This document shows, piece after piece, positions 2,627 to 21,293 of a stretch of DNA of 32,075 nucleotides. The DNA is from Acidimicrobiales bacterium (GTDB taxonomy: Bacteria; Actinomycetota; Acidimicrobiia; Acidimicrobiales; RAAP-2). Both the position numbers and the translations under genes were made by a program. The stretch spans positions 1 to 32,075 of the forward strand of contig JASHUY010000167.1 in the NCBI GenBank assembly GCA_030039755.1, given 5' to 3'. Position 1 is the stretch's first letter; every line of letters begins with the position of its first letter. The notes beneath the pieces were generated by a model. That model saw nothing but the letters and a program-made list of their open reading frames with translations, was not told where the DNA came from and made no database searches.

Positions 2627-2678
2627 ACCCCGTAGGCCGCGGGCACGGACGCCCACGCGGGGACCGAAGGGATCACGG

Positions 2679-8102: not shown

Positions 8103-8573
8103 GTGGCTATCGAATCCCTCGTGCAAGAGGAGCCCGTCGTCGAAGGAGAAGAGGAGGTGGCGCTGTGCTTCGTGCGCCCCATTCCCGGAGCGCCGTTCCG
8201 CCACTCGCGCAATTACGTGCTGCGGTCCCTTGGTCCCCAGTACGGACCGTACGCATCTCTCGTCTCGATGGACCAACCAGACCTGAGCTTCGTCGTCGCA
8301 GCTCCCGGCCTGCTCTTCCCCGACTACGTCTACCGGCTCCCAGAGGACGAGCAGGGTGCGCTGCGGATCGAAGACGCCGCGGAGATCACGACGCTCGCGA
8401 TGGTTCGCCGCGCTGACGTCCCCGGTCCCGTGGTGAACCTCCGGGCACCGATCGTCGTGAACAAGCGGCTCAAGCTCGCCGCGCAGGTCCTCCTCGACGA
8501 AGACTGCGGCTACGGCTTCATGGTCCCGGTCGACGCTCCGAGCGCCCACTTCAAGGACGAGCCTCCGTGCTAG
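8103..8573 (+). CDS. fliW: Flagellar assembly factor FliW
   Basis: FliW binds free flagellin and, when released, inhibits CsrA, linking flagellin translation to its export. The 156-residue protein shows the FliW strand pattern: LCFVRPIPGAPFRHSRNYVL, a 'YASLVSMDQPDLSFVVAAPG' segment with the conserved LxSxDxPxLxFxVxxP motif, LLFPDYVYRLPEDEQGAL, and VVNLRAPIVVNKR (the TVNLxAPIVIN motif). It is slightly longer than usual at both ends. Its last 7 nt overlap csrA, so the two antagonists are translationally coupled. GTG 8103 follows GGAGG. Confidence 0.92.
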   Translation: MAIESLVQEEPVVEGEEEVALCFVRPIPGAPFRHSRNYVLRSLGPQYGPYASLVSMDQPDLSFVVAAPGLLFPDYVYRLPEDEQGALRIEDAAEITTLAMVRRADVPGPVVNLRAPIVVNKRLKLAAQVLLDEDCGYGFMVPVDAPSAHFKDEPPC

Positions 8574-9148
8574 TGCTCAACCGACGCCCAGGCGAGTCGA
8601 TCCTCTTGGAGGGCGACATCGAGATCACGGTTCTCCAGGCGAAGGAACGGGCCGTCTGGCTGAAGGTCTCCGGCGAAGGGGTCACCCCCACGGTCGTCTT
8701 CGGCGTCTCGATGGTCGCCGCCGCAGAGGTGCGCCTCGAGATAGGAGCACCACGCCGGGCGACGATCGGCGACGACGAGGTGGTCGTCGAGGTCGCCGGC
8801 CCGGGTCATCCGTCCGTCGTCGCCCAGGCGACCCTGTCACTCCTGGTGCGGCCGGGGCAGCTCGTAAAGGTTGGAGGGTCGCTCTGGATGACGGTGGCTC
8901 CCGCGGAGTCCAGGACAACGGACCACAGCCGCCCGTACCTCGTGCTCGGGGGGCCTGCGATCGACACCGAGCTCAAGATCGCCTTCATCAGACCGGTCGG
9001 CAATTCGGTCCGCCTCGGGGTGGACGCTCCGGGGCGGAGGATCTATCGAAAAGAGCTCTGGGAAGCGCTCGTCGCGGCCAACCGGGCCGCGCTCGGTGCA
9101 GACGGCGACCTCTCGTACCTGCGCCAAAGAGAGAAGGTGCAAGCCTGA
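8567..9148 (+). CDS. csrA: Extended CsrA-like translational regulator (193 residues)
   Basis: CsrA is normally a 60-75-residue homodimer that binds GGA motifs in mRNA leaders. Here residues 1-35 (MLVLNRRPGESILLEGDIEI, TVLQAKERAVWLKVSG) match the first half, keeping Leu4, Arg6 and Arg7. Residues about 136-175 match the second half (VRLGVDAPGRRIYRKELWEA), keeping Arg161 in place of the RNA-contacting Arg44 and a tail like that of Bacillus CsrA (NRAALGA). About 100 residues lie between. Within them, residues 90-111 (LSLLVRPGQLVKVGGSLWMT) again resemble a CsrA N-terminus, suggesting two fused copies forming a single-chain pseudo-dimer. The gene overlaps fliW by 7 nt; the fliC leader holds matching sites. 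Confidence 0.8.
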   Translation: MLVLNRRPGESILLEGDIEITVLQAKERAVWLKVSGEGVTPTVVFGVSMVAAAEVRLEIGAPRRATIGDDEVVVEVAGPGHPSVVAQATLSLLVRPGQLVKVGGSLWMTVAPAESRTTDHSRPYLVLGGPAIDTELKIAFIRPVGNSVRLGVDAPGRRIYRKELWEALVAANRAALGADGDLSYLRQREKVQA

Positions 9149-9212: not shown

Positions 9213-9563
9213 TCAGCGGTTGCCGGTGGGGGGTGTCGACCCGTTGCGCTGTTCGGTCGTTCCCCCGTGCGTTCTCGATCCCGACGTCGGCGGCCCTTCC
9301 TGGCCGTGGCGCTCTTGCGCGAAACGCCCGTACCCGTCGAGGAGGGCCTTCTCGATCTCTGCTTCACGCGCCTTGCGGGCGTAGCCGTCGTAGACGCGTT
9401 CGATGACGGCTCCGCCTGCCCAACAGAGCGCGACGGCGATCCCGAAACGGAGCGTCACGGCTGCAACGCTGATCCCGCCGTCGAGGAACGACGGGATCAT
9501 CGGCAGCGACACCAGGATCGCTGCGGCTACGACCAGTCCTGGACGCCGGACCCCCACGATCAC
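9213..9563 (-). CDS. Small two-helix membrane protein downstream of flhF
   Basis: A 116-residue product has two hydrophobic segments (about residues 9-22, GLVVAAAILVSLPMI, and about 31-52, AAVTLRFGIAVALCWAGGAV), then a charged helix (VIERVYDGYARKAREAEIEK) and a disordered Gly/Thr/Arg-rich tail. The GTG at 9563 overlaps the flhF-like stop codon (GTGA), so the two are translationally coupled. A longer version starting at 9731 would lie inside the flhF-like gene and is not supported. I do not recognise the family. The position, where many bacteria carry the MinD-like gene flhG, suggests a role with FlhF at the flagellar base, but that is inference only. Confidence 0.65.
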   Translation of the reverse strand: MIVGVRRPGLVVAAAILVSLPMIPSFLDGGISVAAVTLRFGIAVALCWAGGAVIERVYDGYARKAREAEIEKALLDGYGRFAQERHGQEGPPTSGSRTHGGTTEQRNGSTPPTGNR

Positions 9564-10753
9564 TCCGTCGACAGGCGGCGGGCCACGAGCCGAGCCCAAA
9601 CCGAAGGGGTCGCAGCCTCGTCGTCGATACACCTCACGGGAATACCGGTCGAGAGGATCGCTCCGGGAGTCGCGGTCGTCTCCATGTCGACGAGCGCCAA
9701 CGCGTCGACTCCGCCGAGCGCTTTGGTCCAATGGAGCACGTCTTCCACCTTGGTGGTACCAGACGCGACGCCGAGCACCTGCGACGGGTGCATCGCCGCC
9801 AGCACCTCGCGGGTCCAGCGCTGGTCATGGCCGAGCGCGGCGCCGTGGACGACGACGACACCGACCCTGTCCCTGCGCCAACCGGGTGACAGCGAAGCCG
9901 CCTCGACCGGGGACTGGGCGAACCATCCGTCGGGAACCGGCCTGTCGGGAACCCCCTCGCAGACCAGCGCGATCTCGTTCGAGGGACAGCCCACGGCGGT
10001 CGCCACATGACGAGCGCATCTGCGCGACGCTCCCGCAACACCGAGGAAGCTCGCGAGTTTTCCCTCCCCGGCCGCCGAGGCGCCCACCACCGCCACGAGC
10101 CCGCCGCTGCACTCGGGGAACGGCGGCGCGAGAGGCAAGCGTGCGAAGACGGCCTCGAGCGTCGATCGTCCGGGAACGTCCGGAGGTCGTGTCCGCACCA
10201 TGGGTTCTGGAACGCCGCACCGGCGAAGGAACCCGCGTACGCCTGCCCAGTCTTCCTCCTCGGCAGGTGCCGGCACCTGCGACGCGTCCGGCGCCCGCGC
10301 ACCCGTCACTCGTGCACCCGGCGCCCGCGCACCCGTCACTCGTGCACCCGGCGGAGGAAGATGCCTGGGCCGGTACTCGCCCGGCGCCTCACCCATGGAG
10401 CTCGCGACGTCGGCGAGCACCATGGCGAACGGCTTCGCCGCATCTTCGGGCCGAGCGTCCTCGGACCCGGGTGCATCTGCCAGCGTCACCTCGTCTTCGG
10501 TCGCGTCGAGGTACGCGCCCAGGGGATCGCCTCGCCGAGCGGAGGTCGCGGGAGCGGAGGTCGCCGGAAGGGGGGCGTCGGCACCGTCGAGGTCGACGGT
10601 CAACACGTAGACCTCCTTGGCGAAGAACCCGAAGATCCCCCCGACCCGGCGTTTCTCGGGCCGCTGGATCCGGACCGGCCCGTGCTCCTCGATGACCTGT
10701 TCGACCAGCGCCCTCGGATCAGGCCCCTGGTACACCAACTTCTGCGCTTGCAC
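9560..10753 (-). CDS. flhF: FlhF-like protein with degenerate GTPase motifs
   Basis: FlhF is an SRP-type GTPase that places flagella. The 397-residue product has the FlhF N-terminus (KLVYQGPDPRALVEQVIEEH, then GGIFGFFAKEVYVLT, residues 5-52), a disordered linker with a 10-residue tandem repeat (about 136-155), and a C-terminal domain that follows the FlhF order. The nucleotide motifs have decayed: the P-loop reads GASAAGEGKLA (224-234) with no GK[ST], VVVHGA (300-305) replaces the DTAG box, and LVDMETTA (354-361) replaces TKLDETA. ASGTTKVEDVL (330-340) still matches the family's SATTK segment. It is probably a pseudo-GTPase. GTG 10753 overlaps the end of flhA by 35 nt. Confidence 0.72.
   Translation of the reverse strand: MQAQKLVYQGPDPRALVEQVIEEHGPVRIQRPEKRRVGGIFGFFAKEVYVLTVDLDGADAPLPATSAPATSARRGDPLGAYLDATEDEVTLADAPGSEDARPEDAAKPFAMVLADVASSMGEAPGEYRPRHLPPPGARVTGARAPGARVTGARAPDASQVPAPAEEEDWAGVRGFLRRCGVPEPMVRTRPPDVPGRSTLEAVFARLPLAPPFPECSGGLVAVVGASAAGEGKLASFLGVAGASRRCARHVATAVGCPSNEIALVCEGVPDRPVPDGWFAQSPVEAASLSPGWRRDRVGVVVVHGAALGHDQRWTREVLAAMHPSQVLGVASGTTKVEDVLHWTKALGGVDALALVDMETTATPGAILSTGIPVRCIDDEAATPSVWARLVARRLSTE
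10291..10350. repeat. Two perfect 30-bp tandem repeats inside the flhF-like gene
   Basis: The 30-bp unit at 10291-10320 is repeated exactly at 10321-10350. It is in frame and encodes two copies of the 10-residue unit PGARVTGARA (minus strand) in the disordered linker. A recent duplication by slippage is likely. Confidence 0.9.
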
Positions 10754-12907: not shown

Positions 12908-15900
12908 CTACCGAACTGCGACGACGGCGTAGTCGGGGACGGTGAGCAGGTCGGAGAGGAGGTCTCCCGACCCTCCGGGGAAGACGACGGTGGCCTCGCT
13001 GAAGCCCGCCTGGCGGCACAAGAGGACCGCGACCTCGGGGAAGATCGGGTGCTTGTGCGTCAGGTCCAGCCAGAAATTCTTGCGGGCGACCGCGCAGTGC
13101 GGATTCACGGTCTCAGCGACGAGCAGGCCGCCGGGACGGAGCGCCCGGCGACTCTCGGCGAGGAAGTCCTGGAGGGTGACGCCGTCGAGGTGCTCGATGA
13201 CCTGAGCGCTGAAGACCGCCCCGAGCGCCCCTTCCTCGAGGCGACCGAGGTACCCGATGCAGTCGCCCGCTTCGACGGAGAGCCCTTTGTGCTCGGCGCG
13301 GTCGACCATCGAGGCGTCCAGGTCGATGCCGTGCGCCTCGATGCCCGAGGCCACCAGCAGCTCGAGCATCTCCCCTCGTCCGCAGCCGACGTCCAGCACC
13401 GGTGTCCGTCCGACGAGCAGAGGGACGTAGAAGCGCAGCCGCCGGCGGATCTCCTCTTCGCTTCCACGGAAGACGTCTTCGAATCCCACGTACCCGGCGT
13501 CTCGCCCGTCCGGGCTGCGAAAGCCGATGGACAATCCTCCGTTCGTGCCCTTGACGAGGAGTGACGCAGGTACGGGGTTCGTTCCCCTCGGTACCGCCGA
13601 CGCCTCGCGCTTCAAGTAGGCGAGCTCCTGGGCGAAATCCTGGAGGAGGCCCTGCATCTTGCCGAGCGCGGTGGAGGTGAGCTTGGCGAGCATCTCGATC
13701 CGCTCGTCGGTCCCCTTCGTCGGTTCGACCGGGGCGGAGGGACCCGGCTCGGCGGAGGTGGGGACCGGCGGTGGGGCCTCGTCGCCCGAGACGAGTGCGC
13801 GGAGCCGTCCGCGCACGATCTCTGCGGACCGGCCGACGCCCAGCTGCTCGACGACGCGGGCTCTTCCCGCCGCACCCTTGCGGCGTCGTGCATCTTCGTC
13901 CGTGACGGCCTGGCGTAGGAGCTTGCGCAAGGACTCCCTGTCGGGCTCCGCTCTCCAGAACCCCGCGGGGCTCGCCGCCACCCCTTCGAGCTCGACCGGC
14001 ACGGTCCGCGCCGGGACCAGCCAGCTCGTCGACGCATCGCAGTAGTCGCTGCAGGCCCCGTAGTCCGTGACGACGGTGGACAGCCCGCATGCCATCGCCT
14101 CGGCCACAGGGAGCGCGAAACCCTCCCCGCGATAGGGATGCACGAGCACGTCGCACGCCCGGTACAGCGAGGCGAGCTCCCCTTTGGTCAGGCGGCCTTC
14201 GACGATCTCGATCGCGGGAGCCCTCGGGTCCTCGCTCGCTTCATGCGCCCGCCCGTCCATCGCGACCTGCCGGTAGACGCCGTCAGAACCGAAGAGCTTG
14301 AGCACGAGACACACGTCGTCTTGAGGCCCGAAGCTCTCGAGGTAGGTGTCGAGGAGCAGGTCGAACCCCTTTCTCGGGATCGCACCGCCGACGAAGAGAA
14401 GACGGACCGCCTTTGCGTTCTTCAGCGAGAAGCGTCGACCGTCAGGGCGGAACGTCTGGGTGTCGATGCCGTACGGGACGAGAACCACCTTGTGTCGAGG
14501 GACACCGCTCCGGACGTAGCAGTCGCGGACCCATGACGTCGGTACCCACACTTCCTGTGCCGACTTCACGCCTTCCACCCAGTCGGCCGGCACGCCCCCG
14601 AACTCCCACGGCTGCATCACGACGAGCTTGCCCTTCTCCGGAGCCGTGAAGTTCGGGGGCCAGGAGTGGCGCACCTCGACCCTCGGCTCCCCGCCCGGAC
14701 GTTCGACGTGCGCACGTACGATGCGCCGGACCGCCGCGACATGGTCCTCGGCGTAGGGCGGCTTCTCCGCCGTGACGGGCTCGATGTCCAGCTCCTCGTC
14801 ACCGACGAGCGCCGCGCACAGCTCGCGGTTCACGTTGGCGAAGCCGGTGTCGGCGTAGAAATCGCCTCGCCAGCGGACCCGCGCCCGGGTGGGCCTGCGC
14901 ACGGACGGCGGCGATGCAGCCAGCTCGCGCAGGCGCGCGTCGGCCGCAGACGCGGCCTCGTGCCAGCCGAAGCCGGCGACCACGTCGGCACGTGCCCGAG
15001 AGCCGAGCCGTTCGCGAAGTCCGGTGTCCGCGGCGACCCGGCGGAGGCACTCGGTCAGGTGCGCGGCCGAGGGCTCGGCCCAACGCTGGCCACGGTAGAA
15101 GGCCAAGTCCATGCGCTCGTCGATCTCCACGAGCCCGTCGGGCTCGATGAGCAGGCTGTTGTCGTCCGTCATGAACTCGAGATTGCCGCTCCACCGGGTG
15201 CCGATCGCGGGAAGCCCGCATGCCATCGCCTCGATGAGCGGCCGTCCCCAGCCTTCGCCACGCGACACGCCGACGAAGACGTCCGCCGAGGCGATGAGCC
15301 TCGGCATCTCCGACGGAGCGAGCGGTGCTCCGACGACCACGATCGGAGCGAGGGAAGGCCGCTCGAGGCCCAACGTCGCGAGCTGCCGGCCGACGAGCTC
15401 TTCGACCATGGCGGTGGTGTCGCCGTCGAACCTCCCGCGAGGGAAGCAACGCAGCACGAGCGAGACGTCCTCGTCGGGGCCGAACGCGTCCGCCCACGCG
15501 CGCAGCAACACGTCCGGCGCTTTGCGGTTGCTCCATTCGAAGACGCTCAGGAACGTCGTTCCCCTCGCCCCTGGGATCGCAAGCCGTTCGAGCCCCGGGC
15601 GATAGGTGTCGGCGTCGACACCTCCGTGGACGACAATGACGGGCACCGTGACGCCGGCACCCACGAACGTCTCGGCATTGAAGTGCGAGGGCACCCAGAC
15701 CTCGTCGACGCGGTTCAGTCGCTCGACCCATGTGACGGGGAGACCGTCGGTCTCGAACATGGTCCGTACGATCGTGCGACAAGCCCCGCCGACCGGCTCG
15801 GCTGCGTAGCCAGGAAGGTGCAGGACGGCCGTGACCGGGTCGAGGCATCTGGTCGTCATGGCCGTCTCGATCCGCTCGAGCATCGGGGTTCCCCGCATCG

Positions 15901-16108
15901 ACTCGACGAAGGAGGGGGAGTCGTCTCCGGGCGAAAGCGCAGAGAAACGCCACCCGAAGGACCACAAGGCGCTCAGGAACCCTCGCGCCTCCTCCCCGTA
16001 GCCCGAGTGGTTGAAGTAGGGCGCCACCCACAGCAGGGTGCCGGGAACAGGGGGCCGCTCCGCTTCTTCGGGTTGACGCAGCGGGGGGGCAGCCGTCAGG
16101 GAAGGCAC
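12908..16108 (-). CDS. Giant fusion: two GT4-type glycosyltransferases plus a SAM methyltransferase
   Basis: The 1066-residue cytoplasmic protein has three catalytic-looking modules. The first GT-B/GT4 unit (about 23-395) has SRGEGWGRPLIEAMACGLPA with an EX7E pair (Glu285, Glu293). The second (about 408-770) has DEVWVPTSWVRDCYVRSGVP, VPYGIDTQTFRPDG and YRGEGFALPVAEAMACG (Glu662, Glu670). A Pro-rich linker and helix (about 775-840) lead to a class I methyltransferase (about 880-1066) with VLDVGCGRGEMLELL (904-918), GIDLD and VIEHLD (970-975). It lies next to fliC and to another large glycosyltransferase, so it may build and O-methylate a flagellin glycan; the sugar and acceptor are unknown. 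GTG 16108 follows a GGAGGG motif, 7 nt after the upstream stop. Confidence 0.85.
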   Translation of the reverse strand: MPSLTAAPPLRQPEEAERPPVPGTLLWVAPYFNHSGYGEEARGFLSALWSFGWRFSALSPGDDSPSFVESMRGTPMLERIETAMTTRCLDPVTAVLHLPGYAAEPVGGACRTIVRTMFETDGLPVTWVERLNRVDEVWVPSHFNAETFVGAGVTVPVIVVHGGVDADTYRPGLERLAIPGARGTTFLSVFEWSNRKAPDVLLRAWADAFGPDEDVSLVLRCFPRGRFDGDTTAMVEELVGRQLATLGLERPSLAPIVVVGAPLAPSEMPRLIASADVFVGVSRGEGWGRPLIEAMACGLPAIGTRWSGNLEFMTDDNSLLIEPDGLVEIDERMDLAFYRGQRWAEPSAAHLTECLRRVAADTGLRERLGSRARADVVAGFGWHEAASAADARLRELAASPPSVRRPTRARVRWRGDFYADTGFANVNRELCAALVGDEELDIEPVTAEKPPYAEDHVAAVRRIVRAHVERPGGEPRVEVRHSWPPNFTAPEKGKLVVMQPWEFGGVPADWVEGVKSAQEVWVPTSWVRDCYVRSGVPRHKVVLVPYGIDTQTFRPDGRRFSLKNAKAVRLLFVGGAIPRKGFDLLLDTYLESFGPQDDVCLVLKLFGSDGVYRQVAMDGRAHEASEDPRAPAIEIVEGRLTKGELASLYRACDVLVHPYRGEGFALPVAEAMACGLSTVVTDYGACSDYCDASTSWLVPARTVPVELEGVAASPAGFWRAEPDRESLRKLLRQAVTDEDARRRKGAAGRARVVEQLGVGRSAEIVRGRLRALVSGDEAPPPVPTSAEPGPSAPVEPTKGTDERIEMLAKLTSTALGKMQGLLQDFAQELAYLKREASAVPRGTNPVPASLLVKGTNGGLSIGFRSPDGRDAGYVGFEDVFRGSEEEIRRRLRFYVPLLVGRTPVLDVGCGRGEMLELLVASGIEAHGIDLDASMVDRAEHKGLSVEAGDCIGYLGRLEEGALGAVFSAQVIEHLDGVTLQDFLAESRRALRPGGLLVAETVNPHCAVARKNFWLDLTHKHPIFPEVAVLLCRQAGFSEATVVFPGGSGDLLSDLLTVPDYAVVAVR

Positions 16109-16115
16109 GGCCCTC

Positions 16116-19100
16116 CTATCGGCTCGGAACCGCCTGCGCTGAAGAACGGGAAATGGCCGCCGCGAGTTGCTCCCGCCCGTCGATGCCCGCGCACAGGGCG
16201 GTCAGGCAGCCGGCGGCGGCGTTCACGGCAGAGGAGAGCGACCACCCGGATGCGACATGCCGCGCCGCTTCCCCCTTCCGGCGCCTGGCCTCCGGCTCAT
16301 GGACCGCGCGCCGCAAGCACTCGGCGAGCGAGGTCCGGCTCGGCTCCACGCGCCACAGCTGACCGGTCGCCGACAGGACACCGGCATCCTTCGGCGCAAC
16401 CTCTGCCCGACGCGCTGCGGCGAGGTACGCGGCCTCTCCGCCGCACACCTGAGCGAACAGGCCCTCGCCTGCGACGAGAACCGGTCGTCCGCACGCCATG
16501 GCCTCGAGCACGAGTGCCAGGTCCCCGGGCGCCCGATCGCAGAAAGCCGCGAGATCGCATGCCCGGTACAGGGCGGCGCGTCCCTCCGGTGCAAGCTTCT
16601 CTTCGACCACCACGACCTCCGGGTGCCCGCGAGCCCGGGCGGCCCTCCTGGCCTCGTCGAGAAGGGCGCCGGCGGGTGCCGTGGGACACACGACCAGGCA
16701 CACGTCGTCGTCCTTCGAGAACCCCGTGAGGTAGGCCTCGAGCAGGGCGTCCAGCCCGCTCCGCTCGCTGCAATCGCCTGCGAACAGCACCTTGTTGGTC
16801 CTCCTGGTCGCGAGGGCCAAGGCCGGTCCTGCGGGGGAGAAGGTGGCGGTGTCGACGCCGGCCGGCACCACCTGGACCTTCGTCGCGGGCACTCCGCTCG
16901 TAAGGGCCTCCTCTCTGGCCCAGGTGGTCGGCACCCACACCTCGTCCACCACGTCGCGTATCGGCCCGATCCACTCGCAGGGGAGCGGCCCGTAGCCCCA
17001 GCGCACCTCCACGACGAGGCGTGTGGACGAAGAGGGGGTGAAGTCGACGGAGCCGAGGCGCACCTCGACCCGGGCTTCGTCCGGATCACGCACCACCTCG
17101 ACCCTGGGGTCCCCCCGCAAGCCGTCCGCCAGCTCCGGCCTTCCCGTGACGGCGACCGTCGGACGGTCACCCCCCGTCCGACGGCACGGACCGTGGGCCG
17201 GAGAGACGGCGACATGGAGGAGCGGGTCGGCGAGCGCGGGCACGGGTGACGACATTGCCCGGGGCGCGAACCGCCTCCAGAGCTCACCGGCTTCCGGGTC
17301 GGTCAGCGCGGCGAGTGCGGCAACGAGCTGCGCTGCTCCGTGGTGACCCGCAGGAGCGCTCGGGAGAGCCAGGGCGGGCGTGCCGCACATCGCCGCCGCG
17401 GCGAGCCAGTGGGCCGCGCCCGCCCGGGTGACGACCAACACGGCGCGGGCGGCGGACAGCCACGGCGTGGGGTCCGCGAGCGGACCGGTGACGAGCGGCG
17501 AGCCCAGCGCGTCCGCGACCCGGCGCGCGCCCTGGCCGACGACCGCGAACGGGACGCCGGTGAGGCGCCGGGAGAGATCGGGCGCGACCAGCTGCTCGAA
17601 GGCTGCCAGCTCGTCTCCGCTCGCGTCGGAGAAGTCGCCGACGACGCACAGGCCGACGCGCAACTGCTCTGGGACCGGTTGCGGCGCGGCGAAGAGGTGC
17701 GGAGCCGAAGAGGGGAGGACCAGCGAGGAGACGCCGTCGATCCGTCCCATCGACAAGAGGGCACAGCGCGCGTGCTCGGCGGTCGGCAAGGTGTCGTCGA
17801 CGTCGACCAGCATCTGGGAACCAGGGAACAGGCGCCGGAGCTCGTCGATCATGCCCGCCGCATGACGGTCCGACACCACCACGTCGAACCGGCGCGTGGC
17901 GCACAGCGCGCCGGCCGCAGTGAGGGGGTCCCCGGCGCCGGCGCAGTCGACCCCGACGGCGTCGAGCACCGCTCTCGTGTCGGCCTCGGGCCCCGGCAGG
18001 ACGCAACAGACCTGGTGCCCCGCCCGACGAAGCGAAGCGGCGACCGCCATGGAGCGGATGGAGCTCGTTCGCAAACCGAAGACGAGGACGGAACGCCCGG
18101 TCGCCGGAGGAAGAGGGTCGCCGACCGCGCTCGGGCGGGCTGCCAGCTCGTCGAAGAGCGGGAGAAGGGACGGGGCGAGCTCGCAGACGCGCCGTCGGGC
18201 TTCCCGGGCTGTCGGGACCGCCCGCGCCTGCGCGCCGAAGGCCATGCGCCCGCGCGTGTCGCCGAAACGGTCGGCTGCGACCGCCGCGCCGGAGATCGCC
18301 CCCAGCGCTGTGCGGGGGTTCGCCGCCGCCGAGACGAGCGGGCACGCGCCCTGCAGACCTTGTTCGCGCAACCGTTCGGACCAGACCGAGCGGCGCTCGG
18401 TCGAGAGGCCGGGCGCGACCTTGCTCGCCGCGGCGAGCACCGCCTTGCCCGGGGCGCGCTCGTGCCAGACCTCGAGCACCCGGTCGGCCTCTTCGGGCTC
18501 CAAGTTCAAGAGCTGGCCCAAGAAGACGACCTCTCGCCCCTTCGGAACGGCGTCGACGATCTCCGAGATCGGACGGCGCGCGTCGTCCAGACACCCGACG
18601 AGGGTTCCGAGGTGGACGTCGAGTCCGCCGTCTCGCCTGAGCGTCGAGAGCAGCACGTCGGCGGCGTCACCCTGCCGGCCCAAGAGGGAGAGCGCCATCG
18701 ACTTGTAGACGGCGACGTCCCTCGGGCCGTACTCGAAGCCGTCGTCGTCGGTGCATTCCTCGACCCGCTCGAGCGCGCGGAGCGCCTCGTCGGCCCTTCC
18801 GAGCATGAGGAGCGCCCTGCCAGCGTCGATGTGCGCCAGGGTTGGCACCCTGGTGCACTCCCGAAGCTCCTCTGCCGCTGAGAGCGCCTCGTCGGCTCGC
18901 CCTACGGAGAGCAGCGCGGTGACGATCGTCCGCAGCGCGAGGCGCCTCGTCCCGGAGTCCGGCTTGGCTGCGAGCGCCGCCCTGCAGATCTCGATCGCCT
19001 GCTCGTGCCGGTCGCAGATGCCGTAGGAACGGCCGAGGTTGACGAGGCGCGCCGGCCACGAGAGGTCGGACCCCGAGACGAGGTCGCGGAAGGCGCTCGT

Positions 19101-20294
19101 CAAGTTCCGGCGGCCCTTGTCGCGCGCCTCGAAGTCCGACGCCAGGTACCCCCAGTGCGTGAGGCGGGTGAAGGACGCCGCCGAGATGCCGGGCTGCCTC
19201 GTTCCCACCCTCGCCACGACCTGCTCGTGGAGGTGGCCCGTCCAGCGGCACGAGGCGCGACGGAAGAGTCGACAGGCGGGGTGGGCCATGGTGGTCGACG
19301 CCCTCGTGCCTTTCACGTTGTCGATCATGACGACGAGCCCCTCGGCACCCGCACCCAGCTCGTCGAGCTCCTGGCGTTGGGCGTCGGAATCGCAAACGAG
19401 CTCTTCGTCCGCGTCGATCCAAAGGATCCACTGCCCCTGGCAGTGGTCGAGGCACGCATTCCTCGCTCGCGAGAAGTCCCCGTCCCAGTACCCCTCGACG
19501 ACCCGGGCTCCCGCTTCCCGTGCGATCTCCTTGGTGTCGTCAGTCGAGCCCGTGTCGTAGACGACGATCTCGTCACAGAGCCCTCCGAGTGACGACAGGC
19601 AGCGCCCGAGGTTGTCGTGCTCGTCTTTGACGATCAGGCACGCGCTGACGAACGGGCGCGTGTGCGAGGGACCTCGTGGACGCGGCGGCGGGCCACCGCC
19701 GCTGTGGAGGTAAGACCCGTCGGAGACCAACAGGCGCCCCGAGCGCGCCACGCGTCGGGCCAGCACCGCCACCGCATCAGCCCCGCTCAGGATCGTGGCA
19801 CCGCCAGCGTCCAGAAAGTCTTTTCGCCTGAGTGCGAGGCACGGGCCCGCCAGAACCTCCGCGTCGCTGAACTGACCTCCGCACTGCTGCGCCAGGATCC
19901 CGACGAAGGCTCGGTGCACGCCGGCCTCGTGGGCGCGGTAGGGGACACCGACGAGGAGCTCGTCGCCGTCGGCGATGTTGGTCCGGGGCGCCACCGCCGC
20001 GACCGACGGGTCCGCGAGCGCCTGGACCAGAGGCTCGAGCCAGGCTCCGGACGGCACCGCGCGCTCGTCCAGCACGACCACCAGATCGTGCATTCGGGGG
20101 CGCTCCGCCCGGCGCAAGAGCTTTGAACCTTCGGCCACGCGCCAGGTGCGTGCCGAGGAGAGGTCGGCTCCGGGCTGGAGGACGGCGACGTTGTCTCCCG
20201 TCGCGAGCAGCGGCCCGAGGAGAGCGAGACAGTTGCGGGTGAGGCGCCTGTCACGCCCTGCAAGAAGCGCGAGCGAGACGGGAGGCCGATGCAC
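16116..20294 (-). CDS. Giant multi-domain glycosyltransferase with TPR region
   Basis: The 1392-residue protein has a GT2-like fragment (1-205) without a clear catalytic core; an intact GT2 domain (214-400, VSACLIVKDEHDNLGRCLSS, VVYDTGSTDDT, and WIDADEEL with DxD at 294-296); TPR-like helical repeats (about 410-560); a GT-B-like region (about 733-1000); and a final GT4-like unit (about 1045-1370). The last is clearly related to the second unit of the neighbouring protein (DEVWVPTTWAREEALTSGVP; VPAGVDTATFSPAG) but the first Glu of EX7E is Pro1256 (Glu1264 remains), so it is probably not catalytic. TPR-linked GT2 proteins are often protein glycosyltransferases; flagellin is the likely target by position. 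GTG 20294 follows a sigma-28 -10 box by 7 nt. Confidence 0.82.
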   Translation of the reverse strand: MHRPPVSLALLAGRDRRLTRNCLALLGPLLATGDNVAVLQPGADLSSARTWRVAEGSKLLRRAERPRMHDLVVVLDERAVPSGAWLEPLVQALADPSVAAVAPRTNIADGDELLVGVPYRAHEAGVHRAFVGILAQQCGGQFSDAEVLAGPCLALRRKDFLDAGGATILSGADAVAVLARRVARSGRLLVSDGSYLHSGGGPPPRPRGPSHTRPFVSACLIVKDEHDNLGRCLSSLGGLCDEIVVYDTGSTDDTKEIAREAGARVVEGYWDGDFSRARNACLDHCQGQWILWIDADEELVCDSDAQRQELDELGAGAEGLVVMIDNVKGTRASTTMAHPACRLFRRASCRWTGHLHEQVVARVGTRQPGISAASFTRLTHWGYLASDFEARDKGRRNLTSAFRDLVSGSDLSWPARLVNLGRSYGICDRHEQAIEICRAALAAKPDSGTRRLALRTIVTALLSVGRADEALSAAEELRECTRVPTLAHIDAGRALLMLGRADEALRALERVEECTDDDGFEYGPRDVAVYKSMALSLLGRQGDAADVLLSTLRRDGGLDVHLGTLVGCLDDARRPISEIVDAVPKGREVVFLGQLLNLEPEEADRVLEVWHERAPGKAVLAAASKVAPGLSTERRSVWSERLREQGLQGACPLVSAAANPRTALGAISGAAVAADRFGDTRGRMAFGAQARAVPTAREARRRVCELAPSLLPLFDELAARPSAVGDPLPPATGRSVLVFGLRTSSIRSMAVAASLRRAGHQVCCVLPGPEADTRAVLDAVGVDCAGAGDPLTAAGALCATRRFDVVVSDRHAAGMIDELRRLFPGSQMLVDVDDTLPTAEHARCALLSMGRIDGVSSLVLPSSAPHLFAAPQPVPEQLRVGLCVVGDFSDASGDELAAFEQLVAPDLSRRLTGVPFAVVGQGARRVADALGSPLVTGPLADPTPWLSAARAVLVVTRAGAAHWLAAAAMCGTPALALPSAPAGHHGAAQLVAALAALTDPEAGELWRRFAPRAMSSPVPALADPLLHVAVSPAHGPCRRTGGDRPTVAVTGRPELADGLRGDPRVEVVRDPDEARVEVRLGSVDFTPSSSTRLVVEVRWGYGPLPCEWIGPIRDVVDEVWVPTTWAREEALTSGVPATKVQVVPAGVDTATFSPAGPALALATRRTNKVLFAGDCSERSGLDALLEAYLTGFSKDDDVCLVVCPTAPAGALLDEARRAARARGHPEVVVVEEKLAPEGRAALYRACDLAAFCDRAPGDLALVLEAMACGRPVLVAGEGLFAQVCGGEAAYLAAARRAEVAPKDAGVLSATGQLWRVEPSRTSLAECLRRAVHEPEARRRKGEAARHVASGWSLSSAVNAAAGCLTALCAGIDGREQLAAAISRSSAQAVPSR

Positions 20295-20380: not shown

Positions 20381-20465
20381 CGACCGCTCATGCGGTCGAC
20401 AACGACGGTGCAACCCGCACAGGGACGTGTGAGTCACCGACACGTACACACAAGGAGGAATACGG
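20381..20465 (+). promoter_or_regulatory. fliC leader with hairpins and two CsrA-like binding sites
   Basis: A perfect 7-bp hairpin (CGACCGC, TCAT loop, GCGGTCG; 20381-20398) comes first. GCACAGGGACGT (20417-20428) matches 10 of 12 positions of the CsrA consensus RUACARGGAUGU. ACACAAGGAGGA (20448-20459) matches 9 of 12 and contains the AAGGAGG Shine-Dalgarno sequence, 7 nt before the ATG. The two GGA cores are 31 nt apart, with a 6-bp stem (ACGTGT/ACACGT, 20425-20445) between them. This resembles the two-site arrangement of the Bacillus subtilis hag leader. Bound CsrA would cover the ribosome binding site. Confidence 0.6.
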
Positions 20466-21293
20466 ATGTCTTCACTTGTAGTCGACACCAACCTGACCGC
20501 GCTCGACACGCTCAACCAGCTGGACAAGACGAGCACAGCGGAGTCCAAGGCGATCGGGGAGCTCTCGACCGGCTTGGCGGTCCAGTCAGCTGCGACAGGA
20601 CCGGCGCAGTACGTCATCTCCCAGTCGCTCGAGTCGCAGTCCGACGGTGACACCACCGCCATCGCCAACGCCCAGGACGGGGTCTCGCTGATCCAGACGG
20701 CCTCCGGGGCTCTGTCGGAGATCAGCTCGATCCTCCAGACGATGGACCAGCTGGCGACCTCGTCGGCGAACGGCGCCACCCAGACAACGACGGCGCTCGC
20801 CGCCAACACAGCCGAGTTCAAGGACCTCGCCGAGACGATCACACAGATCGCGACGACGACCAGCTTCGGCAAGACGAAGCTCCTGACAGGGTCGTTCTCC
20901 GGGACGCTCCAAGTCGGCGCGTACAACACAGCGAGCGAACAGGTCCACCTCGCGATCAGCGGAATGAAGCTGAGCGACCTCGGCCTCACAGCGTCGAACG
21001 TCGGATCCTCAGCGACAGCCGCGTCCGCCATCGCGCTCGTCCAGTCGGCGATCTCCTACGTCGACGAGAACGCCTCGAAGGTCGGGGCCGCTCAGGACGA
21101 GCTCGACTCGGTCGTGGCAACCCTCACGGTCGCCCAGCAGAACATCGCGGCGGCGAACAGCCAGCTGGTCGACGTCACAATGGCGGCCGAGATGACCACA
21201 TACACGACGGACCAGATCCTGGAGCAGACCGGTGTCGCCATGCTGGCGCAAGCTCAGCAGGCGCCCTCGCTCGTCCTCAAGCTGCTCAGCTGA
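20466..21293 (+). CDS. fliC: Flagellin, minimal two-domain form
   Basis: The 275-residue flagellin forms the filament. The N-terminal coil (about 5-145) has DTNLTALDTLNQLDKTSTAE, GELSTGLAVQSAATG, DGVSLIQTASGALSEISSIL, SSANG and TTTSFGKTKLLTGSFSGTLQ. The C-terminal coil (about 185-275) has VGAAQDELDSVVATLTVAQQ-NI and the export end TTDQILEQTGVAMLAQAQQA-PSLVLKLLS. There is no D2/D3 insert. The usual LRINSAKDDAAG segment is replaced by LAVQSAATGPAQ, and Asp94 sits where the TLR5-contacting Arg90 of Salmonella lies. It is Ser/Thr-rich, giving many possible O-glycosylation sites. It has a sigma-28 promoter and a strong AAGGAGG site, is probably CsrA-controlled, and divergently flanks the glycosyltransferases. 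Confidence 0.92.
   Translation: MSSLVVDTNLTALDTLNQLDKTSTAESKAIGELSTGLAVQSAATGPAQYVISQSLESQSDGDTTAIANAQDGVSLIQTASGALSEISSILQTMDQLATSSANGATQTTTALAANTAEFKDLAETITQIATTTSFGKTKLLTGSFSGTLQVGAYNTASEQVHLAISGMKLSDLGLTASNVGSSATAASAIALVQSAISYVDENASKVGAAQDELDSVVATLTVAQQNIAAANSQLVDVTMAAEMTTYTTDQILEQTGVAMLAQAQQAPSLVLKLLS

Follow-up and report, generated by a model that had tools for sequence, protein, structure and literature searches.

A putative single-chain CsrA pseudo-dimer with one candidate RNA site, encoded beside fliW in a flagellar gene cluster of Acidimicrobiales

The accepted picture of CsrA is a dimer carrying two equal RNA sites. Each of these sites combines strand 1 from one subunit with strand 5 from its partner in the ordinary dimer (PMC7829508), and in RsmA an Arg-Glu pair forms an intersubunit salt bridge (PMC3791407). 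The SELEX consensus of CsrA, RUACARGGAUGU, mostly presents GGA in a six-base loop with the flanking AC and GU paired, and full repression of glgC by mixed dimers of Escherichia coli CsrA required both sites to be working (PMC7652899). RsmN (RsmF) of Pseudomonas aeruginosa is a 71-residue relative in which an alpha helix has been inserted between strands 2 and 3; it has lost the C-terminal helix and forms a two-site dimer, and the insertion converts the domain-swapped dimer to docked monomers (PMC3791407). In Bacillus subtilis, Hag, FliW and the CsrA dimer act at a ratio near 1:1:1 (PMC6529632), and FliW binding is lost or weakened when N55 of CsrA is mutated in B. subtilis or Campylobacter jejuni (PMC7829508). 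A full-text literature search, with subscription papers mostly outside its reach, returned no description of a tandem, fused, double or single-chain CsrA, and the words "tandem" and "fused" are absent from the text of a review of the Pseudomonas CsrA family (PMC7366521).

The DNA analyzed here (the window) is a whole 32-kb contig (32,075 nucleotides) with flagellar genes, from an Acidimicrobiales genome of 2.98 Mb in 247 contigs that is 70% complete. It encodes a 193-residue protein, hereafter the double CsrA, whose reading frame shares its first 7 nt with the end of fliW (stop at 8573; Table 1). The Pfam CsrA model (PF02599) matched this protein above its curated cut-off (E = 1.2e-18; 67.3 bits versus 27), the match being split in three stretches, with residues 1-34 as the best; separate CsrA-matching places were found at residues 2-34 (31.8 bits) and 132-167 (24.8 bits) and, weakly, at 47-76 (10.7 bits). 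Scores with the NCBIfam CsrA equivalogs TIGR00202 and NF002469 were below both cut-offs (57.5 versus 70.1 and 55.3 versus 73), and these models describe a short chain of 69 and 65 positions with five strands and a helix, as opposed to the 193 residues and 15 modeled strands found here. Equivalents of the RNA-site residues of the family (L4, R6 and R7 with R44 and E46) are present at residues 4, 6, 7, 161 and 163 in 28 of 28 aligned proteins. The double CsrA is a member of the CsrA family at the Pfam level, yet lies outside CsrA proper, by equivalog score and length, and outside RsmN, which is set apart by its helix insert. Searches of plasmid and phage collections gave no match at an E of 1e-3.

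Table 1. Features of the double CsrA, its gene neighborhood and its candidate RNA targets in the window
Feature	Position (nt)	Strand	Residues	Description
fliW	8103..8573	+		156 aa; PF02623, E = 6.9e-21 (Pfam)
Double CsrA gene	8567..9148	+		193 aa, GTG start; aligned with 27 homologues
N half	8570..8821	+	2-85	Modeled strands 2-6, 11-14, 18-25, 29-36, 39-51, 54-60, 62-67 and 71-76; model and repeat
N-half strand 1	8570..8596	+		L4, R6, R7 and E10; candidate half of composite RNA site 1; 28/28
N-half strand-5 equivalent	8750..8776	+	62-70	Putative degenerate half of composite site 2
C half	8822..9100	+	86-178	Modeled strands 89-94, 99-102, 106-111, 124-128, 136-144, 147-153 and 159-161, helix 162-178; model
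C-half diverged strand 1	8834..8860	+	90-98	Half-profile repeat and 28-protein alignment
C-half strand 5	9035..9055	+	157-163	R158, R161 and E163; other candidate half of composite site 1; 28/28
N172, equivalent of CsrA N55	9080..9082	+	172	N in 18/18 flagellar-locus copies and 0/10 paralogues
flbD-leader hairpin, possible CsrA site	2641..2654	+		Loop ACGGAC, stem of 4 bp, 34 nt upstream of the start codon
Flagellin-leader hairpin, probable CsrA site	20416-20431	+		CGCAC-AGGGAC-GTGTG; stem of 5 bp, one of them G-U; 45 nt upstream of the start
AAGGA over the flagellin Shine-Dalgarno, possible second CsrA site	20452..20456	+		Leader sequence
Flagellin gene, probable target	20466..21293	+		Named from its translation

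Several other genes of the cluster were recorded. A small gene downstream of csrA (9213-9731, minus strand) had no Pfam match, and its translation resembles a short membrane protein; relatives of it lie in 9 of 11 flagellar loci of related genomes. Relatives of a 397-aa open reading frame after flhA (9560-10753, minus strand), which was labeled flhF-like by position and for which no Pfam match was listed at an E of up to 10, lie in all 11. Two very large glycosyltransferase-like reading frames on the minus strand between flhA and the flagellin gene (12908-16108, 1066 aa; 16116-20294, 1392 aa) perhaps serve flagellin glycosylation.

The original prediction read the 193-residue protein as two fused CsrA copies, and this reading was assessed with profiles of the two halves built from 21 relatives. 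The N-terminal (residues 2-67) and C-terminal (residues 90-160) profiles were homologous in hhalign (probability 96.9, E = 1.4e-10), aligning in register over 66 columns, with a 5-residue insertion unique to the window protein. This bears out the claim of a second, diverged start-like stretch at about residues 90-111, and the second strand 1 of the relative G302 has the sequence TLTRRPGEAI. When the 21-row profile was compared with six single-length CsrA proteins, residues 90 to about 180 fell on CsrA residues 2 to about 62 (probability 98.4, E = 7.1e-15), interrupted by a single insertion in the C half, after strand 2. With the halves of the window protein as the only input, BLASTP detected no similarity (E = 11). 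Comparison of quarter profiles gave probabilities of 97.5% for q1-q3, 48.6% for q1-q4, 7.5% for q2-q3, 1.9% for q3-q4, 0.6% for q1-q2 and 0.5% for q2-q4; the last pair, a match expected if the halves are copies, thus fails to align alone, and a hairpin doubled inside either half was unsupported. A 14-nt DNA repeat in the gene has a spacing of 236 nt, no multiple of three, and is not the duplication. Purifying selection was seen on both halves, pN being lower than pS in both for 10 of 11 pairs (all but the near-identical G008/G009). Together, the sequence comparisons support two homologous CsrA-type halves in one chain, for which an ancestral csrA would have doubled and then fused into one gene. 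The halves are not the plain CsrA copies first envisaged, as each has an extra stretch after strand 2.

A structure prediction had been proposed as a check, and it returned a CsrA-like unit twice and a middle that is not an unrelated domain, in a model that is partly led by its alignment. AlphaFold with a 51-row alignment reached a pLDDT of 88.9 and a pTM of 0.81 (86-89 in pLDDT across five models), and a seven-strand unit was seen twice. Single-length CsrA proteins from viral contigs made up 48 of the 51 rows, and a trial MAFFT alignment matched the N-terminus with strands 1-2 of ordinary CsrA and the C-terminus with its strands 3-5, so that the contact across the halves was partly suggested to the model; because ordinary CsrA is laid across both ends, the model depends in part on that cross-half reading. 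A model from three native rows (pLDDT 52.3, no Foldseek match at an E of 0.001) was discarded. The 51-row model also has a short helix at 82-85 and a low-confidence helix at 183-192, and the long C-terminal helix is confined to the C half. In this model each half looks like a CsrA unit to which a beta-hairpin has been added after strand 2, and the halves would pack together as the subunits of a CsrA dimer do. Viral contigs themselves were rich in CsrA, 238 of 256 pattern-matching IMG/VR stretches encoding CsrA relatives (80 kept).

Foldseek found no match to the 51-row model in the PDB at an E of 0.001. Two matches under this threshold were obtained in BFVD, both with a low TM over the whole model: a phage "carbon storage regulator" (E = 2.9e-4, probability 1.00, TM 0.27/0.43, rmsd 14.9) and the unnamed A0A6G5YEX0 (E = 7.6e-4, probability 1.00, TM 0.32/0.66). 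In a VIA comparison, RsmN (4kji_A) was at rank 27 (Z 3.7, rmsd 3.5, 55 of 64 residues, between model residues 1 and 165); the leading rows, CcsBA (Z 7.1) and then mostly viral envelope proteins (Z 5-6), lie in a range rated uninformative by VIA's notes. The double CsrA shares with RsmN an insertion between strands 2 and 3 and this weak structural match, whereas its predicted insert is a hairpin, its C-terminal helix (162-178) is kept and its units are fused.

Conservation was assessed in an alignment of 28 distinct double CsrA proteins (counting that of the window), which come from two families within a single order; G949 (start unsettled), G991 and L029/L030 (records of G005 and G001) were omitted, and the rows of G006, a 58% complete and possibly mixed bin with three copies, were retained. 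L4, R6, R7, E10, G151, A154, P155, R158, R161, E163 and W165 were invariant in 28 of 28. R6 and R7 lie at the N-terminus and R161 near the C-terminus, as had been claimed, and the distance between the first and last strands, put at about 100 residues, is larger, R7 and R161 being 154 residues apart. In ordinary CsrA, R7 and R44 are 37 residues apart. By our numbering, R6 and E163 presumably correspond to the RsmA Arg-Glu intersubunit pair. On the reciprocal side, the residue-68 column, which is in register with R161 and equivalent to R44, holds D in 14, E in 6, V in 3, G in 2, R in 2 and A in 1, so that arginine is absent in 26 of 28; this register is carried one residue past the aligned N/C block, and R occurs in at most 9 of 28 in any column from 62 to 71. 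The equivalent of R6 in the C half is R in 19 of 28 (V94 in the window), and that of R7 is R in 16 and K in 4 (R95 in the window).

The alignment and the model support a single complete composite RNA site, in which strand 1 comes from the N half and strand 5 from the C half, alongside a degenerate second one, in line with the earlier suggestion of a single-chain pseudo-dimer with perhaps one RNA site, to which the profiles, the conservation in 28 proteins and the model all lend support. The complete site would be the single one for ANGGA hairpin loops, and the reciprocal site would have decayed, leaving that side mainly as scaffold. The pattern of invariance together with purifying selection fits one RNA site on a pseudo-dimer whose other side is kept for the fold. 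Strand 1 of the C half is basic in many members, and site 2 may be partly functional. The arrangement resembles E. coli CsrA with R44A in one chain, which likewise has one intact and one arginine-less site, unlike the double CsrA in being an artificial, two-chain laboratory construct. With the CsrA/RsmA homodimer the double CsrA shares L4, R6 and R7 in strand 1, R44 and E46 in strand 5, the C-terminal helix, a FliW neighbor and a GGA hairpin in the flagellin leader; it differs in being one chain of two halves with about 117 extra residues, an extra stretch in each half and one degenerate site.

The spread of the double CsrA was assessed in the window's genome and 60 relatives, 14 of which carry it (12 of the 13 members of the genus, plus single genomes from two further genera of the family), with 21 proteins in total; six others of the same 61 have a single-length CsrA. 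In wider samples the family profile was searched with at most 8 candidates scored per genome, so that single misses are possible. At the order level (397 genomes), 25 matched at an E of 1e-9, 10 over the full length, these being the window's genome and nine genomes from a single further family, and the remaining 15 covered the C half only, as single-length CsrA does. The class sample (395 genomes) gave 45 matches at an E of 1e-6, two of them full length and both inside the order, and the phylum sample (396 genomes) gave 18 at an E of 1e-8, with a full-length match in the window's genome only. One of the nine other-family genomes, G991, is probably mis-binned: its protein (G991:C55, L230, on a 6.2-kb contig) is all but identical to that of G012, which belongs to a different family.

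Candidate RNA targets were sought in the leaders of flagellar genes. Flagellin was searched in 12 genomes, two of which had no flagellin match, leaving 10 leaders. An ANGGA hexaloop hairpin was present in 8 of these 10, with the stem at -31 to -46 and one mismatch in two of them; in G006 the stem is present and the loop changed. Among nine stem-bearing leaders, 93.3% of cells pair, changes on both sides occur in four of five pairs, and the covariation score (0.544) was reached by 0 of 500 shuffles and exceeded that of all slid controls; these rows were selected by eye around the motif and include close relatives. Pairing probabilities of the window stem were 0.96-0.98 when folding began 12 nt past a promoter-like CCGAT and 0 when 130 nt upstream were included, and G004 likewise had nearly none (0.03); in these predictions the position of the transcription start is decisive for formation of the hairpin. 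GGA-loop hairpins are not in excess in the window: on both strands, one has at least 5 bp (that of the flagellin leader; mean of 1.12 and maximum of 4 in shuffles) and six have at least 4 bp, four of them within 120 nt upstream of listed starts, and place and conservation alone are informative. One such place is flbD (named from its translation), where a similar hairpin of 4-6 pairs lies 34-36 nt before the gene in four of four leaders (window, L092, L093 and L095); judging from these leaders, flbD and the genes after it are possibly under CsrA control.

Whether repression would proceed from one site or by bridging bears on the best-surviving alternative, which we consider unlikely, namely, that the long chain homodimerizes and so retains two RNA sites and bridging on mRNA, the fusion merely adding scaffold. 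Flagellin leaders do still offer more than one ANGGA: besides the hairpin, one lies at the Shine-Dalgarno in the window and its near relatives G001, G005 and G012, and another covers the start codon (GGATG) at -4 in 10 of 10 leaders (L205-L214). The hairpin is 31-32 nt from the Shine-Dalgarno ANGGA in those four leaders, within the 10- to 63-nt bridging range of E. coli CsrA (PMC7652899); in G014 and G033, relatives with a single-length CsrA, this distance is 19 nt. Against bridging, ANGGA arises unaided from AAGGAGG Shine-Dalgarno sequences and GGATG starts, and it is missing at the Shine-Dalgarno of G004 and G019. Since ANGGA occurs at the Shine-Dalgarno and at -4, possible second sites persist, and the leaders fit both one-site and bridging repression.

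Still less probable is that each half forms a self-contained RsmN-like unit in which its own strand 1 and strand 5 make its own RNA site. The insertion between strands 2 and 3 in each half, as in RsmN, would suit such units, but both sites would then be incomplete, as 26 of 28 proteins have no strand-5 arginine in the N half and 9 of 28 (window included) no R6 equivalent in the C half, yet R6, R7, R161 and E163 are invariant; for R6 and R7 this is hard to square with an N-half site broken in nearly all members. We give very little weight to the reading that CsrA ends flank an unrelated domain between strand 2 and strand 3: in the trial MAFFT alignment single-length CsrA did fall on residues of about 1-17 and 135-180, with about 117 between, but the middle is itself CsrA-like, by the half-profile repeat, the weak Pfam stretch at 47-76 and the second strand 1 of G302. 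An annotation, frame or assembly artifact joining two genes, conceivable as the source genomes are assemblies, mostly of many contigs (the window's being incomplete), is refuted by the homologues, a search for which had been proposed as a check: open frames encode 28 such proteins (174-227 aa) across many genomes and two gene neighborhoods, 18 of them in flagellar loci, and the frame is not a one-off join.

A fused pseudo-dimer with one working RNA site remains the preferred reading, and we next consider its control by FliW. Sequence features of a FliW-controlled CsrA are present, namely, the N55 equivalent, an extended C-terminus, fliW in the same genome and a GGA hairpin in the flagellin leader. 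As in the B. subtilis FliW-CsrA-Hag system, FliW accompanies a CsrA that keeps N55, and the flagellin leader has more than one putative site, one of them at the Shine-Dalgarno; unlike the B. subtilis dimer with its two C-terminal helices, the double CsrA has one long helix. The ratio near 1:1:1 in B. subtilis makes a fused dimer with one FliW site plausible. Free double CsrA would bind the flagellin-leader hairpin, and probably that of flbD, hindering ribosome binding and translation; FliW released from flagellin would then dock on the sole long C-terminal helix, at N172, probably 1:1, and free the mRNA. Among the 18 flagellar-locus copies, those of G004 and G007 have fliW about 9 kb off on the same contig. 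In G302, which is also among the 18, the double CsrA with N172 and FlhA are present, and neither a detectable FliW nor a GGA hairpin in the flagellin leader was found; the FliW circuit may have been dismantled there.

The paralogues form one side of a branch with a support of 100/100. Their loci have an adjacent gene for an LLM-type oxidoreductase and/or an SDR in 10 of 10 and an adjacent full-length glgX in 7 of 10 (all named by reading translations). The second double CsrA of the window's genome, of 227 aa, is one such copy outside the flagellar cluster (G000:C245:35049-35729, minus strand; L007:7050-7730, minus strand) and sits between an LLM-type oxidoreductase gene and glgX, names that are again translation based. 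Regulation of the adjacent glgX by the paralogue found no support in the leaders, a GGA-loop hairpin being present in 0 of 7 glgX leaders. In five genomes of the same genus (G002, G008, G009, G010 and G011; 59-93% complete), the paralogue was the only copy found, and neither FliW nor FlhA was found in any of these five. Most simply, the double CsrA would have arisen under FliW in a flagellar setting and been duplicated later in the window's lineage, the daughter then escaping FliW and outliving the flagellum.

Taken as a whole, the proposal of a natural fused CsrA pseudo-dimer with one working RNA site, acting as a flagellin repressor that FliW releases, is in our judgment likely to hold. We lean only slightly towards its fuller form, a permanently asymmetric CsrA in which one chain with one RNA site and one FliW site represses from a single site and not by bridging, together with a FliW-independent daughter paralogue that survives in nonflagellate species. 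A natural fusion in which one site drifts while the other is unchanged across two families would offer a direct test of what the second site of CsrA is for, and the double CsrA lets one ask whether FliW must bind once or twice. With a flagellar copy that has the FliW asparagine and a paralogue without it, one genus may give a view of how a CsrA leaves FliW control.
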